Shown here piece after piece: positions 36,936-49,647 of a stretch of 64,000 nt of DNA. Location: positions 1,426,001 through 1,490,000 of the forward strand of contig NZ_CP114598.1 in the NCBI RefSeq assembly GCF_030848305.1, written 5' to 3'. The position numbers were made by a program, and so were the translations under genes. Position 1 is the stretch's first letter. The number at the start of each line of letters is the position of its first letter. The notes under the pieces were generated by a model. That model had not been told where the DNA came from. It searched no databases and saw only the letters and a list, made by a program, of their open reading frames with translations. The stretch comes from Akkermansia muciniphila (GTDB lineage: Bacteria; Verrucomicrobiota; Verrucomicrobiia; Verrucomicrobiales; Akkermansiaceae).

Positions 36936-39071
36936 CTAATAGATGAACAGCATTTCCCGGTACTTGGGGAGAGGCCAGGACCGGTCGTTCACCAGGGTTT
37001 CTGCGGCATCGACGCTGGTTCTCAATCGGGACATCGCAACGAGGATGTCCTCATGGCAGCTCGTAAGCGCCGTTTCCAGGGTATCCAGGTCGGATACGAT
37101 GGAATCCAGGGCGTCGCCCAGCTTGTCCGCCAGCTTCTGCAGGGCGGCGGTGCCGCTGGTCCGCTTGGCGTCCAGCGCCCTGGAGAGCGCGGAAACGGTT
37201 TGCTCGTATTCATTGCGCAGAGCGGGGAGAATGATGGTGGCGGCCATTTCCCAGGACAGGCGGCCTTCAATGCGGATGCGCCTGTGGTATTCTTCCAGGA
37301 AAATCTCAAACCTGGATTCCAGCTCCCGCCTGGAAAAGACGCCGTATTTTTCAAACAGGGCCACATTCTTTTCATTCACCAGGGTGTGAAGGGCCGTCAT
37401 CGTATTTTTCAGGTTGGGGAGGCCGCGGCGTTCCGCTTCTTTCACCCATTCTTCCGAATAATTGTCCCCGTTGAAGATGATTCTCTTGTGTTCGGAAATC
37501 CTGCGCTTGAGCGTTTCCTGGAGCTGCGGCAGGAATGTTTCCGGAGCGAAGGAGGAAAGTTCTTCCGCCAGGGAATCGAGGGATTCCGCCACAATGGTGT
37601 TCAGGGTCATCATGGGACCCGCGCAGGATTGAGATGAGCCCGGTGCGCGGAATTCAAACTTGTTGCCGGTGAAGGCGAACGGGCTGGTGCGGTTGCGGTC
37701 CGTCGCGTCCCGGGGAAGGACGGGCAGCGTGTCCACGCCGATCTTGAGCGTATCGTTGCGCTTGCCGCAGCCGGAAGAGCCGTTGATCATATTCTCAATT
37801 ACTTCATTGAGCTGGGCGCCCAGGAAAATGGAGATAATGGCCGGGGGGGCTTCGTTCGCGCCAAGGCGGTGGTCGTTCCCGGCGCTGGCCACGGAATTTC
37901 GCAGCAAGTCGCTGTGTTTGTCAACGGCCTCGATGATGGCGGTCAGGACGGTCAGGAAAATGGCGTTTTGCTGCGGATCCGAGCCGGGGTCAAGCAGGTT
38001 CTTGTTCCCGTAGGAAATGGACCAGTTGTTATGCTTGCCGGAACCGTTGACGCCAGCAAAGGGCTTTTCATGAAGCAGGCATACCAGGCCGTGCTTGCTG
38101 GCCTGCTGGCGCAGAACCTCCATCACCAGCATGTTGTGGTCGATCGCCAGGTTCACGTCCTCAAACAGAGGGGCCAGTTCAAATTGCGCGGGCGCCACTT
38201 CGTTGTGGCGGGTCTTGGCCGGGATCCCCAGTCTCCAGAGTTCCTGTTCCACGTCGCTCATGAAATTAAGGACGCGGGGTTTGATGGAGCCGAAATAATG
38301 GTCTTCCAGCTGCTGGTGCTTGGCGGGAGGTGCGCCGAAAAGGGTGCGCCCTGTCTGGACCAGGTCCGGGCGGTTCAGGTAGAAGTTCTTGTCAATGAGG
38401 AAGTACTCCTGTTCCGGCCCCAGCGTGATGGTCACGTGTTCATCCGGAAGGCCGAAGCACTTCATCAGCTTCTTGACGGCGTTGCCCAATGCCTGGCGGG
38501 AGCGCAGCAGCGGAGTCTTCTTATCCAGCGCGTCTCCCGTATAGGAACAGTAGGCGGTAGGGATGCAGAGCGTGGCTCCGTTCCCGTGCCTCTTGATGAA
38601 GGCGGGGCTGGTGGGGTCCCAGGCGGTGTATCCGCGGGCCTCAAAGGTGCAGCGCAGGCCGCCGGAAGGGAAACTGGACGCGTCCGGTTCGCTCACAATC
38701 AGGTTTTTGCCGGAGAAGCTCATGATGGGTTCCATTCCCTTGGGGTCCAGGAAGGAATCGTGCTTCTCCGCCGTGGAGCCCGTCATGGGCTGGAACCAGT
38801 GCGTATAGTGAGTGGCTCCCCGTTCCAGAGCCCACTGCTTCATGGCGTGGGCCACATCCGCGGCAATGTCCGCGTTCAGAGGAAGTCCGTCCTGGATAGT
38901 GGCCAGGAGGGTTTTTGCCGTATCTTTGGGCAGGTACTTCTTCATCACTTCCGTGCTGAAGACATCCGCTCCGTAATAATCAATGCTGACCGGGGCGCTT
39001 TCGCTTGCTCCGCCCACGGGCAGGGAAGCGATGGCGCTGATGGCTTGTGTTCGTGTCGAGTCACTCATCAT
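36936..39071 (-). CDS. glnN: Glutamine synthetase type III (first copy)
   Basis: 711 residues. GSIII marks: GLRCTFEARGYTAWDPTSPA, EQEYFLID, GKHNNWS, GNDHRLGANEAPPAIISIFL and NRTSPFAFTGNKFEFRAPGS. It makes glutamine from glutamate, ammonia and ATP, as a large dodecamer in characterised members. An open frame reaches 39134, but a near-perfect sigma-54 promoter lies at 39096-39112, inside that extension. Translation must therefore start at ATG 39071 or 39068 (MMSDSTRTQ). It is divergent from gltB and shares its control region. A second copy lies at 47496. Confidence 0.95.
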   Translation of the reverse strand: MMSDSTRTQAISAIASLPVGGASESAPVSIDYYGADVFSTEVMKKYLPKDTAKTLLATIQDGLPLNADIAADVAHAMKQWALERGATHYTHWFQPMTGSTAEKHDSFLDPKGMEPIMSFSGKNLIVSEPDASSFPSGGLRCTFEARGYTAWDPTSPAFIKRHGNGATLCIPTAYCSYTGDALDKKTPLLRSRQALGNAVKKLMKCFGLPDEHVTITLGPEQEYFLIDKNFYLNRPDLVQTGRTLFGAPPAKHQQLEDHYFGSIKPRVLNFMSDVEQELWRLGIPAKTRHNEVAPAQFELAPLFEDVNLAIDHNMLVMEVLRQQASKHGLVCLLHEKPFAGVNGSGKHNNWSISYGNKNLLDPGSDPQQNAIFLTVLTAIIEAVDKHSDLLRNSVASAGNDHRLGANEAPPAIISIFLGAQLNEVIENMINGSSGCGKRNDTLKIGVDTLPVLPRDATDRNRTSPFAFTGNKFEFRAPGSSQSCAGPMMTLNTIVAESLDSLAEELSSFAPETFLPQLQETLKRRISEHKRIIFNGDNYSEEWVKEAERRGLPNLKNTMTALHTLVNEKNVALFEKYGVFSRRELESRFEIFLEEYHRRIRIEGRLSWEMAATIILPALRNEYEQTVSALSRALDAKRTSGTAALQKLADKLGDALDSIVSDLDTLETALTSCHEDILVAMSRLRTSVDAAETLVNDRSWPLPKYREMLFIY

Positions 39072-39095
39072 GGTTAACTGTTGTACCTTTTCTTC

Positions 39096-39112
39096 AGCAA
39101 GAAGCGTGCCAA
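39096..39112 (-). promoter_or_regulatory. Sigma-54 promoter of glnN
   Basis: On the minus strand the site reads TTGGCACG-CTTC-TTGCT, with the -24 GG and -12 GC exactly 10 nt apart. All positions match the sigma-54 consensus (YTGGCACG-N4-TTGCW). Transcription would begin near 39085, about 14 nt before the ATG at 39071. Sigma-54 promoters need an enhancer-binding ATPase; candidate sites are at 39235-39281. Confidence 0.9.
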
Positions 39113-39234
39113 CTTTCCAGGTAAATGTTCTCATGAATATATTGTTAATTTTAATTTATTGATTATTAGTGAAATATGAATATTGTGGCAAAGGGGCTGC
39201 AAAAAAGGGAAACAAAACTGCGCATAAGAATGAA

Positions 39235-39248
39235 TTACAAAAATGTAA
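39235..39248. promoter_or_regulatory. Palindromic operator/enhancer copy 1 (TTACA-N4-TGTAA)
   Basis: A 5-bp dyad TTACA/TGTAA with AAAA spacer. It is identical to copy 2, and both continue with the same AAs. It lies about 156 bp upstream of the predicted glnN start site and 198 bp upstream of that of gltB, the distance range of enhancers for sigma-54 activators. The bound protein is not known from this window. Confidence 0.75.
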
Positions 39249-39267
39249 AATCGCAACAAAGGGGTGA

Positions 39268-39281
39268 TTACAAAAATGTAA
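39268..39281. promoter_or_regulatory. Palindromic operator/enhancer copy 2 (TTACA-N4-TGTAA)
   Basis: Same 14-bp sequence as copy 1, displaced by 33 bp, close to three helical turns, so two dimers could bind on one face. Its distance is about 189 bp to the glnN start site and 165 bp to the gltB start site. The two copies together are centred almost exactly between the divergent promoters. Confidence 0.75.
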
Positions 39282-39412
39282 AAAATTCTTCTCGGGGGGA
39301 ACGATATTTTTATTCCGCTTCAAAATGTCCTGTTATGCCGGCAGCCGCGTCAGTCTTTGTAAAACGGGGGTAAAACAGTTTGAAAGCGGGAAAATAGGAA
39401 GTCTGGGCAATG

Positions 39413-39429
39413 TTGGCACGGTTTTTGCT
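39413..39429 (+). promoter_or_regulatory. Sigma-54 promoter of gltB
   Basis: TTGGCACG-GTTT-TTGCT, a full match to the sigma-54 consensus with 10 nt between the GG and GC dinucleotides. Transcription would start near 39440, about 29 nt before the gltB ATG. It mirrors the glnN promoter across the 397-bp space 39072-39468, which holds no gene. Confidence 0.92.
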
Positions 39430-39468
39430 GCAAATAAGTCAGCTTAACCCAAACAAAACAGCAAACTG

Positions 39469-47495: not shown

Positions 47496-49607
47496 TTACA
47501 GGAAGAGCAGTTCCGCATATGTGGGAACGGGCCAAAGGTTTGCGTCCGTCAAGCCTTCCAGCATATCAATGGTGCTTCTCAAATTGTCCATGCCCGTCTG
47601 GATGGCCTTGGTATCGGCTTCATCCACGGCGCGGCGCAGTTCCCGCACCTGGTCGGGGAGAAGGTCCAGCAGCGTGCCGATTTGGTTGGCGCGGTCCGTA
47701 GTGGCTTTTATTCCCGCCTTGATGCCGGATGCCTTCATCTGGGCAATGGCGTTGGTAAGCTGCGTGAGCTGTTCCGTTACGGCGGGGATGTAAAGGGTTT
47801 CCACCATCAGGAGGGCCGTTTCCGCTTCAATGTTGATTTCCTTGTGGAATATTTCCGTCTGGATTTCATGGCGGGCGTGGAGTTCTACGGGGCTGACCAC
47901 TTTATATTTTTCAAAAAGCGCCCTGGCCTTGGGCGTTTCCAGAGCGGCCAGAGCTTCAATGGTGCCGGGGATGTTGGGGAGATTGCGGCGTTCCGCTTCC
48001 TCGACCCAGGCTTCTCCGTAGCCGTCTCCGCTGAATAGAATGCGCTTATGCTTCTTGATGATGTTTTGAAGAAGCTTGTTGAGGGTGGCGTGGAATTCCT
48101 CGGGCTTGTCCTTGACGGGTTCCAGGATGGTGCAGATTTCATCCAGGCTTTCCGCTACAATGGTGTTGAGCACCGTCATGGGCCATGCACAGGTTTGGGA
48201 GGAACCTACGGCGCGGAATTCGAATTTGTTGCCCGTGAAGGCGAAGGGGCTGGTGCGGTTCCGGTCGGAGGCGTCCAGGGGGAACATGGGCAGGGTGTCC
48301 ACGCCGATGTTGATGGTCTTTTGAGTGCGCGCTTTTTTAGCGCTTCCTTTCTCAATTTGCTCAATGATGTCATCCAGCAAATCTCCCAGGAAGATGGAAA
48401 TGATGGCCGGAGGCGCTTCATGAGCGCCCAGGCGGTGTTCATTGCCGGATTTGGCGACGGAGGCGCGCAGCAGATCCGCATGTTCGTCCACGGCCTTGAT
48501 GGTTGCGCAGAGCAGGGTGAGGAAGATGGCGTTTTCCTGCGGGCTGGAACCGGGATTGAGCAGGCTCCCGTAACCGGGGGCGGAGAGGGACCAGTTGTTG
48601 TGCTTGCCGGAGCCGTTCATGCCGGAGAAGGGCTTTTCATGCAGCAGGCAGACCATATCATGCTTGTTGGCGGTTTTCCGGAGCACCTCCATGACCAGCA
48701 TATTGTGATCCACGGCCAGGTTCTGGCTTTCAAAAATGGGCGCGATTTCAAACTGGCCAGGAGCGACTTCATTGTGGCGCGTTTTGGCGGGGATGCCGAG
48801 TTTCCAGAGGGCTTCGTCCACGTCCACCATGAATTCCAGCACGCGGTCCTTGATGGAGCCGAAGTAGTGGTCTTCCATCTGCTGGTGCTTGGGGGGCACA
48901 TTGCCGAAAAGGGTGCGTCCGCACATCATCAGGTCCGGGCGCAGGGCATAAAGCTGTTTGTCCACCAGGAAGTATTCCTGTTCCGCCCCCAGGTCGGCGC
49001 TGACGTGAATGTTGTCCGGACCGCCGAAGCAGGAAAGCAGCCGCTTGGCCTGCCGGGTGACGGCAGTCATGGATCTCAGGAGCGGCGTTTTTTTGTCCAG
49101 CGCCTGTCCCTTGTAAGAGCAGAAGGCGGTAGGGATGCAGAGCGTGGCGCCGTTTTCCGTCCGTTTGATGAAGGCGGGGCTGGTGGGGTCCCATGCGGTA
49201 TAGCCGCGTGCTTCAAAGGTGGCGCGGAGACCGCCGGAAGGGAAGCTGGAGGCGTCCGGTTCGCCCTGAACCAGGCTCTTGCCGGAAAATTTGAGTTCCA
49301 GATTTCCTTCCGGGTCCACGTCCACAAAAGAGTCGTGCTTTTCCGCCGTGCTTCCATTGAGAGGCTGGAACCAGTGCGTGTAGTGGCTGGCTCCCTTTTC
49401 CAGAGCCCACGTCATCATGGCCTGAGCCACTTCATTGGCGATGTCGGGGTCCAGTTTTTCGTCCTTGCGGATGGTAGCCAGCAGTTTTTTGTAAACGGGC
49501 CGGGGCAGGTAATTGCGCATGGTCTCCATGTTGAAGACATCCTGACCGTAAATTTCCGCAATAAAGGTTGCGGCGTTGCCAACATCGGAAGGTGGGTTTG
49601 TATGCAT
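47496..49607 (-). CDS. glnN: Glutamine synthetase type III (second copy)
   Basis: 703 residues from ATG 49607 (MHTNPPSDVGNAATFIAEIY). All GSIII blocks are present (GLRATFEARGYTAWDPTSPA, EQEYFLVDK, GKHNNWSLSAPG, NEHRLGAHEAPPAIISIFLG, NRTSPFAFTGNKFEFRAVGS), and it is closely similar to the first copy throughout. The N-terminus and the C-terminal helical region differ most. It is divergent from the three-domain esterase gene. A weak sigma-54-like site lies just upstream. Two near-full-length paralogues suggest different regulation or subunit mixing. Confidence 0.94.
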   Translation of the reverse strand: MHTNPPSDVGNAATFIAEIYGQDVFNMETMRNYLPRPVYKKLLATIRKDEKLDPDIANEVAQAMMTWALEKGASHYTHWFQPLNGSTAEKHDSFVDVDPEGNLELKFSGKSLVQGEPDASSFPSGGLRATFEARGYTAWDPTSPAFIKRTENGATLCIPTAFCSYKGQALDKKTPLLRSMTAVTRQAKRLLSCFGGPDNIHVSADLGAEQEYFLVDKQLYALRPDLMMCGRTLFGNVPPKHQQMEDHYFGSIKDRVLEFMVDVDEALWKLGIPAKTRHNEVAPGQFEIAPIFESQNLAVDHNMLVMEVLRKTANKHDMVCLLHEKPFSGMNGSGKHNNWSLSAPGYGSLLNPGSSPQENAIFLTLLCATIKAVDEHADLLRASVAKSGNEHRLGAHEAPPAIISIFLGDLLDDIIEQIEKGSAKKARTQKTINIGVDTLPMFPLDASDRNRTSPFAFTGNKFEFRAVGSSQTCAWPMTVLNTIVAESLDEICTILEPVKDKPEEFHATLNKLLQNIIKKHKRILFSGDGYGEAWVEEAERRNLPNIPGTIEALAALETPKARALFEKYKVVSPVELHARHEIQTEIFHKEINIEAETALLMVETLYIPAVTEQLTQLTNAIAQMKASGIKAGIKATTDRANQIGTLLDLLPDQVRELRRAVDEADTKAIQTGMDNLRSTIDMLEGLTDANLWPVPTYAELLFL

Positions 49608-49630
49608 CTTGATAGGGAACGCGCCAAAAG

Positions 49631-49647
49631 GCTCGGAACATACCAAA
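49631..49647 (-). promoter_or_regulatory. Weak sigma-54-like site before glnN copy 2
   Basis: On the minus strand TTGGTATG-TTCC-GAGCC keeps the GG-N10-GC core but misses several consensus bases. It lies at the same distance from the ATG (about 24 nt) as the strong site of the first glnN. The rest of 49608-49979 (372 bp, divergent to the esterase gene) shows no gene and no TTACA-N4-TGTAA copy. Confidence 0.3.

Follow-up and report, generated by a model that had tools for sequence, protein, structure and literature searches.

A predicted shared enhancer between the divergent sigma-54 promoters of glnN1 and gltB in Akkermansia muciniphila, and its candidate AnfA-type activator

In Akkermansia muciniphila the genes for a type III glutamine synthetase (glnN1) and for the large subunit of glutamate synthase (gltB) are transcribed away from each other, and the space between them probably holds a shared enhancer that lies between two sigma-54 promoters and is worked by an AnfA-type activator, with glnN1 and gltB activated together. 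We put the probability of this reading at roughly 0.8. The locus was found in a stretch of 64,000 nucleotides (contig NZ_CP114598.1, positions 1,426,001 to 1,490,000), referred to here as the window; its features, together with those of the candidate activator gene, are given in Table 1.

Table 1. Features of the glnN1/gltB locus and of the candidate activator gene (positions without a prefix are window positions)
Feature	Position	Strand	Basis or remark
glnN1, type III glutamine synthetase, 711 aa from ATG 39071	36936..39071	-	ORF; orthologues in relatives
glnN1 promoter, TGGCACGCTTCTTGCT	39096..39111	-	0 mismatches to TGGCACG-N4-TTGCW; conserved in relatives
Box 1, TTACAAAAATGTAA, TTAC-N6-GTAA, AnfA-type	39235..39248	.	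exact match; conservation
Box 2, TTACAAAAATGTAA, 33 bp from box 1	39268..39281	.	exact match; conservation
gltB promoter, TGGCACGGTTTTTGCT	39414..39429	+	0 mismatches to TGGCACG-N4-TTGCW; conserved in relatives
gltB, glutamate synthase large subunit, 1479 aa	39469..43908	+	ORF; relatives
glnN2, second type III glutamine synthetase	47496..49646	-	69% identical to glnN1 over searched part
Gene of GAF-AAA+-Fis activator P0001	C1:459518-461089	-	same genome, outside window, 1 Mb from glnN1/gltB
Third box	C1:461199-461212 (L013:1501-1514)		exact match; 110 bp upstream of P0001 ORF

Results

Two sigma-54 promoters and a pair of identical boxes

The -24 and -12 elements of both promoters have the form GG-N10-GC and satisfy the consensus TGGCACG-N4-TTGCW, and a genome-wide pattern scan found no other promoter without a mismatch in the 2.65 Mb genome. 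The initial annotation had described full-consensus sigma-54 promoters with exact spacing, set back to back, and that description holds; rpoN, which it had proposed to look for, is present in the same genome. Judged from the -12 elements, transcription would start at about 39085 for glnN1 and about 39440 for gltB, with leaders of 14 nt (to the ATG at 39071) and 29 nt, respectively. (Note that a longer listed glnN ORF, to 39134, was rejected as it begins upstream of the promoter; the ATG at 39071, with the translation MMSDSTRTQ..., is the fitting start.) Eleven matches with one mismatch elsewhere in the genome were set aside, there being no box support near them and several lying inside coding sequence; the sole box in their vicinity is one weak match with two mismatches, about 400 bp away. 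A dnaK-like gene is preceded, at roughly 100 bp, by a sigma-54-like site, TGGCATGCCATTTGCA (G000:C1:1625681-1625696, L024), with no boxes.

The pattern TTAC-N6-GTAA occurs three times in the window against 0.20 expected, and no shuffle reached three. In its longer form, TTACA-N4-TGTAA, it has exactly three copies in the 2.65 Mb genome (about one would be expected by chance, as estimated from base composition). Two of these lie between glnN1 and gltB; the third, recovered by a genome scan that had been suggested for further copies, lies upstream of the gene for a GAF-domain sigma-54 activator. From the box centres the distances are 157 and 190 bp to the predicted glnN start and 199 and 166 bp to the predicted gltB start, which agrees with the earlier description of identical palindromes 33 bp apart, midway between the promoters and 156-198 bp from the starts.

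We aligned the spacer of the window locus with those of four relatives of the same layout. Each promoter is invariant in 15 of 16 columns and the boxes in 12 of 14 and 10 of 14, against 45 of 274 columns in the remaining spacer. The promoters and boxes are thus conserved islands in a spacer that has otherwise diverged, and both kinds of element are kept, as the initial annotation had asked of related genomes. In more distant species of the genus (GltB about 56% identical) the divergent promoters are also kept and flank TTACAAAATTGTAA. Other species have either a solitary glnN or the order glnN-gltB; the promoter then lies upstream of glnN, with boxes at about -163, -150 and -120. In 21 such upstream regions 23 boxes were counted when one mismatch was allowed, compared to 0.4 in shuffles.

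It is conceivable, if unlikely, that each box mainly serves one promoter, with the same protein acting on both genes and no joint complex, and box 1 is indeed the closer to glnN and box 2 the closer to gltB. However, box pairs 29-30 bp apart are also found upstream of single promoters, which makes the pair look like a single unit. Moreover, only one box was detected between the two promoters in genomes G007, G023 and G035, and in Rhodobacter capsulatus the full activity of a single promoter requires both AnfA sites (PMC7294313).

G004 (L239:1497-1832) and G059 (L240) each have an additional sigma-54 promoter, accompanied by two boxes 29 bp apart. Behind it comes a short basic ORF of 40-49 codons, alike in G004 (LSALLHFFHRPGRIRTAEERERRAAEHLKSMILHARMRSF) and G059; a small protein or an RNA is a possible target. 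In G067 (L241:1720-4245) boxes and a sigma-54 promoter also precede a gene for diaminopimelate epimerase, which is followed by an aminotransferase gene, and this locus adjoins glnN-activator-gltB.

A GAF-AAA+-Fis protein as the candidate activator

Two genuine sigma-54 activators are encoded in the genome: a response regulator resembling NtrC, and P0001, a one-component GAF-AAA+-Fis protein that is 100% identical to the one in an A. muciniphila record. A copy of the box lies upstream of the P0001 gene, and the listing proposed in the initial annotation has in this way yielded a specific candidate. In a domain search P0001 read GAF-AAA+-HTH_8. It has no receiver domain, this domain being found only in the other activator, which sets P0001 apart from NtrC. 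Its GAFTGA loop reads GSFTGA, as in some AnfA-type relatives. The third box is invariant in 14 of 14 columns across seven sequences, compared to 6 of 30 and 20 of 100 columns in its flanks, and its place in front of the gene for P0001 itself points to possible feedback. No sigma-54 promoter was found beside this box in the P0001 upstream region. A sigma-70-like TTGGT...TAATAT lies nearer than the box to the P0001 start codon. As far as these comparisons of sequence go, P0001 is a strong candidate for the activator of glnN1 and gltB.

NifA sites have the form TGT-N10-ACA, which is absent at the two boxes, where TTAC-N6-GTAA is read instead. TTACA-N4-TGTAA is a case of TTAC-N6-GTAA and, by sequence match, includes TAC-N6-GTA, the consensus shown by experiment for the two sites of R. 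capsulatus AnfA that are both required for full expression of anfH (PMC7294313); it is also close to GT(T/A)C-N6-GTAC, the motif of VnfA1 from Azotobacter vinelandii (PMC9542535). The palindrome had earlier been set apart from the NtrC, NtcA and TnrA/GlnR boxes; the reading of it as an unknown class is withdrawn. Since the box fits the AnfA consensus, the candidate activator would accordingly be AnfA-type. (Of the suggested "novel enhancer-binding protein", the likely user as an enhancer-binding protein stands; the unknown class does not, the candidate being an AnfA-type GAF-AAA+-Fis protein.)

The relatives of P0001 point the same way. Outside Lentisphaerota, Kiritimatiellota and Planctomycetota its best sampled relatives are mostly alphaproteobacterial AnfA-type proteins with 45-49% identity, and in a tree built without NifA these form a clade neighbouring the group of P0001. 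One relative is a protein of R. capsulatus, taken here as AnfA. A scan that preceded the comparison with the published consensus found two sites beside its gene, TTACCGAACGGTAA and TTACATAACGGTAA, which agree with that consensus and precede a gene whose start resembles that of a nitrogenase iron protein. Against the NCBIfam NifA equivalog P0001 scored 464 bits, under the cut-off of 528.85, and the R. capsulatus relative was also below it; P0001 matches the solved structure 9qq6_C, a 'Nif-specific regulatory protein', over its full length. Note that a few targets were detected besides glnN and gltB; the genes of alternative nitrogenases are not among the detected targets, and we therefore use the label "AnfA-type" rather than AnfA.

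The promoters and boxes occur together with the activator

In 76 genomes of the genus we compared the presence of a signature, defined as a sigma-54 promoter with ACA-W4-TGT at 75-135 bp, with that of the activator as found by GAF-domain search. Both were present in 35 genomes and neither in 28, whereas 11 had the activator only and two the signature only (p=9.6e-10; the genomes are phylogenetically non-independent, the Akkermansia activators nonetheless falling into at least three separate clades). Among 39 genomes left out of the definition of the signature the corresponding numbers were 17, 14, eight and zero (p=2.5e-5). Since almost all genomes of the genus have rpoN (57 of 59), the variable part is the activator, not rpoN. 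Moreover, no correctly oriented sigma-54 promoter or box was found at glnN in 13 genomes of the genus that have glnN and lack both the activator and gltB.

As for the exceptions, the signature was present and the activator not found in G008 and G024, in the latter of which gltB runs off the contig. Of the genomes with the activator only, two (G071 and G079) show the whole layout, their boxes departing slightly from the pattern, G028 has a promoter with one mismatch, and several of the remainder are limited by their contigs.

In six species gltB is immediately followed by the activator gene. In G067 this gene sits between glnN and gltB, and in others it follows gltB at a distance of 9-14 kb. 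G063 (L245) has a second activator copy beside a glutamine amidotransferase-like gene that is preceded by a sigma-54 promoter. The second synthetase gene, glnN2, never had a sigma-54 promoter in the genomes examined; in the window its upstream region has neither such a promoter nor a box. (This copy is also present in relatives without the activator.)

Both promoters might instead be driven by the NtrC-like response regulator (C1:408600-409598, with an adjacent histidine kinase), in the manner of NtrC in Proteobacteria. This regulator is a genuine sigma-54 activator, and glnA is under NtrC control in Proteobacteria. However, this protein or a close homologue also occurs in genomes without the promoters and boxes, which track the GAF protein, and the boxes fit AnfA and not the known NtrC box; the pattern of co-occurrence leaves this protein a very improbable activator. 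Least probable, by a little, is that the boxes belong to an unrelated regulator such as a repressor and lie between the promoters by coincidence: simple palindromes are common to many regulator families and the third box is not beside a sigma-54 promoter, but sigma-54 promoters depend on an activator, the box is found together with promoter and GAF activator across genomes and phyla, and it agrees with the AnfA consensus.

The arrangement recurs in other phyla

In Victivallis (Lentisphaerota) and in Kiritimatiellota we found divergent glnN and gltB near the activator gene; sigma-54 promoters are present there, as are pairs of boxes spaced by about 30 bp. In rumen Planctomycetota, box pairs 30-31 bp apart lie between divergent glnN and gltB; the glnN promoter there has two mismatches, and no gltB promoter scored above threshold. 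Across the three groups the spacing of the pair is 29-31 bp, and boxes situated between both promoters, as first described in the window, are found in several lineages. A Verrucomicrobiota metagenome-assembled genome (L258) has the divergent promoters, yet no box within two mismatches.

In the activator tree the Akkermansia proteins form at least three clades interleaved with those of Lentisphaerota, Kiritimatiellota and Planctomycetota, and the GltB tree has the same main groupings, which fits horizontal movement of the module. The module appears to have moved between lineages. We consider it rather likely, with less confidence than we place in the shared enhancer, that glnN, gltB and the activator, along with their promoters and boxes, are a portable module governed by an undescribed branch of AnfA-type activators, that AnfA-type control serves nitrogen assimilation in general and not nitrogenase alone, and that the module has been exchanged repeatedly among gut Akkermansia, Lentisphaerota, Kiritimatiellota and Planctomycetota.

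Discussion

We propose that two dimers of P0001 occupy the pair of TTAC-N6-GTAA boxes, on almost the same helix face. The assembled activator would then reach sigma-54 RNA polymerase at glnN1 and at gltB by looping of some 155-200 bp of DNA in either direction and remodel it, and glutamine synthetase and glutamate synthase would thereby be made together. Ordinary two-dimer enhancer action would be consistent with boxes about three helical turns apart, with distances of 90-200 bp and with a GSFTGA loop, and it is plausible that one bound assembly serves both promoters at once. Feedback, of either sign, could act through the third box upstream of the activator's own gene. The GAF domain is probably a sensor of nitrogen or carbon status, with 2-oxoglutarate the likeliest ligand by analogy with NifA; that the signal is nitrogen, we infer from the targets and, again by analogy, from NifA. 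A transcriptomic study of A. muciniphila reports glutamine synthetase and glutamate synthase both up at low mucin (0.05%), with the synthetase copy unspecified in the passage concerned (PMC8079684).

Nitrogen assimilation in Akkermansia now has a named candidate activator, with its box and its targets; a literature search found nothing on sigma-54 or on nitrogen-assimilation regulators in the Akkermansia lineage. An AnfA-type activator would here control ammonia assimilation instead of nitrogenase, extending to this process a class known for the latter. Our findings also suggest that gut bacteria of four phyla trade enzymes of ammonia assimilation along with their own switch.

The control of glnA by NtrC in Proteobacteria is similar in that a glutamine synthetase is under sigma-54 control from distant sites. 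It differs in that the activator has a receiver domain, the box is another, the synthetase is not type III and glutamate synthase is not included. NifA has the same domain order as P0001, which falls below the NifA cut-off and whose boxes are not TGT-N10-ACA. The VnfA1 regulon of A. vinelandii has a related activator, usually two motifs with similar spacing, and one or more intergenic regions where divergent sigma-54 promoters come with a single ChIP peak; its targets are instead vanadium nitrogenase and transport genes, and the outer base of the box is another (PMC9542535). AnfA and anfH of R. capsulatus offer a close parallel, with a GAF-AAA+-Fis activator, a sigma-54 promoter and a pair of TAC-N6-GTA dyads that precede the promoter element by roughly 105-125 bp and are both required for full activity (PMC7294313). 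There the target is the Fe-nitrogenase and the dyads are spaced by 18 bp, whereas the Akkermansia-type targets are glnN and gltB, with boxes spaced by 29-33 bp that are AT-rich and lie as a pair between two promoters, and P0001 and AnfA are about 47% identical as proteins.
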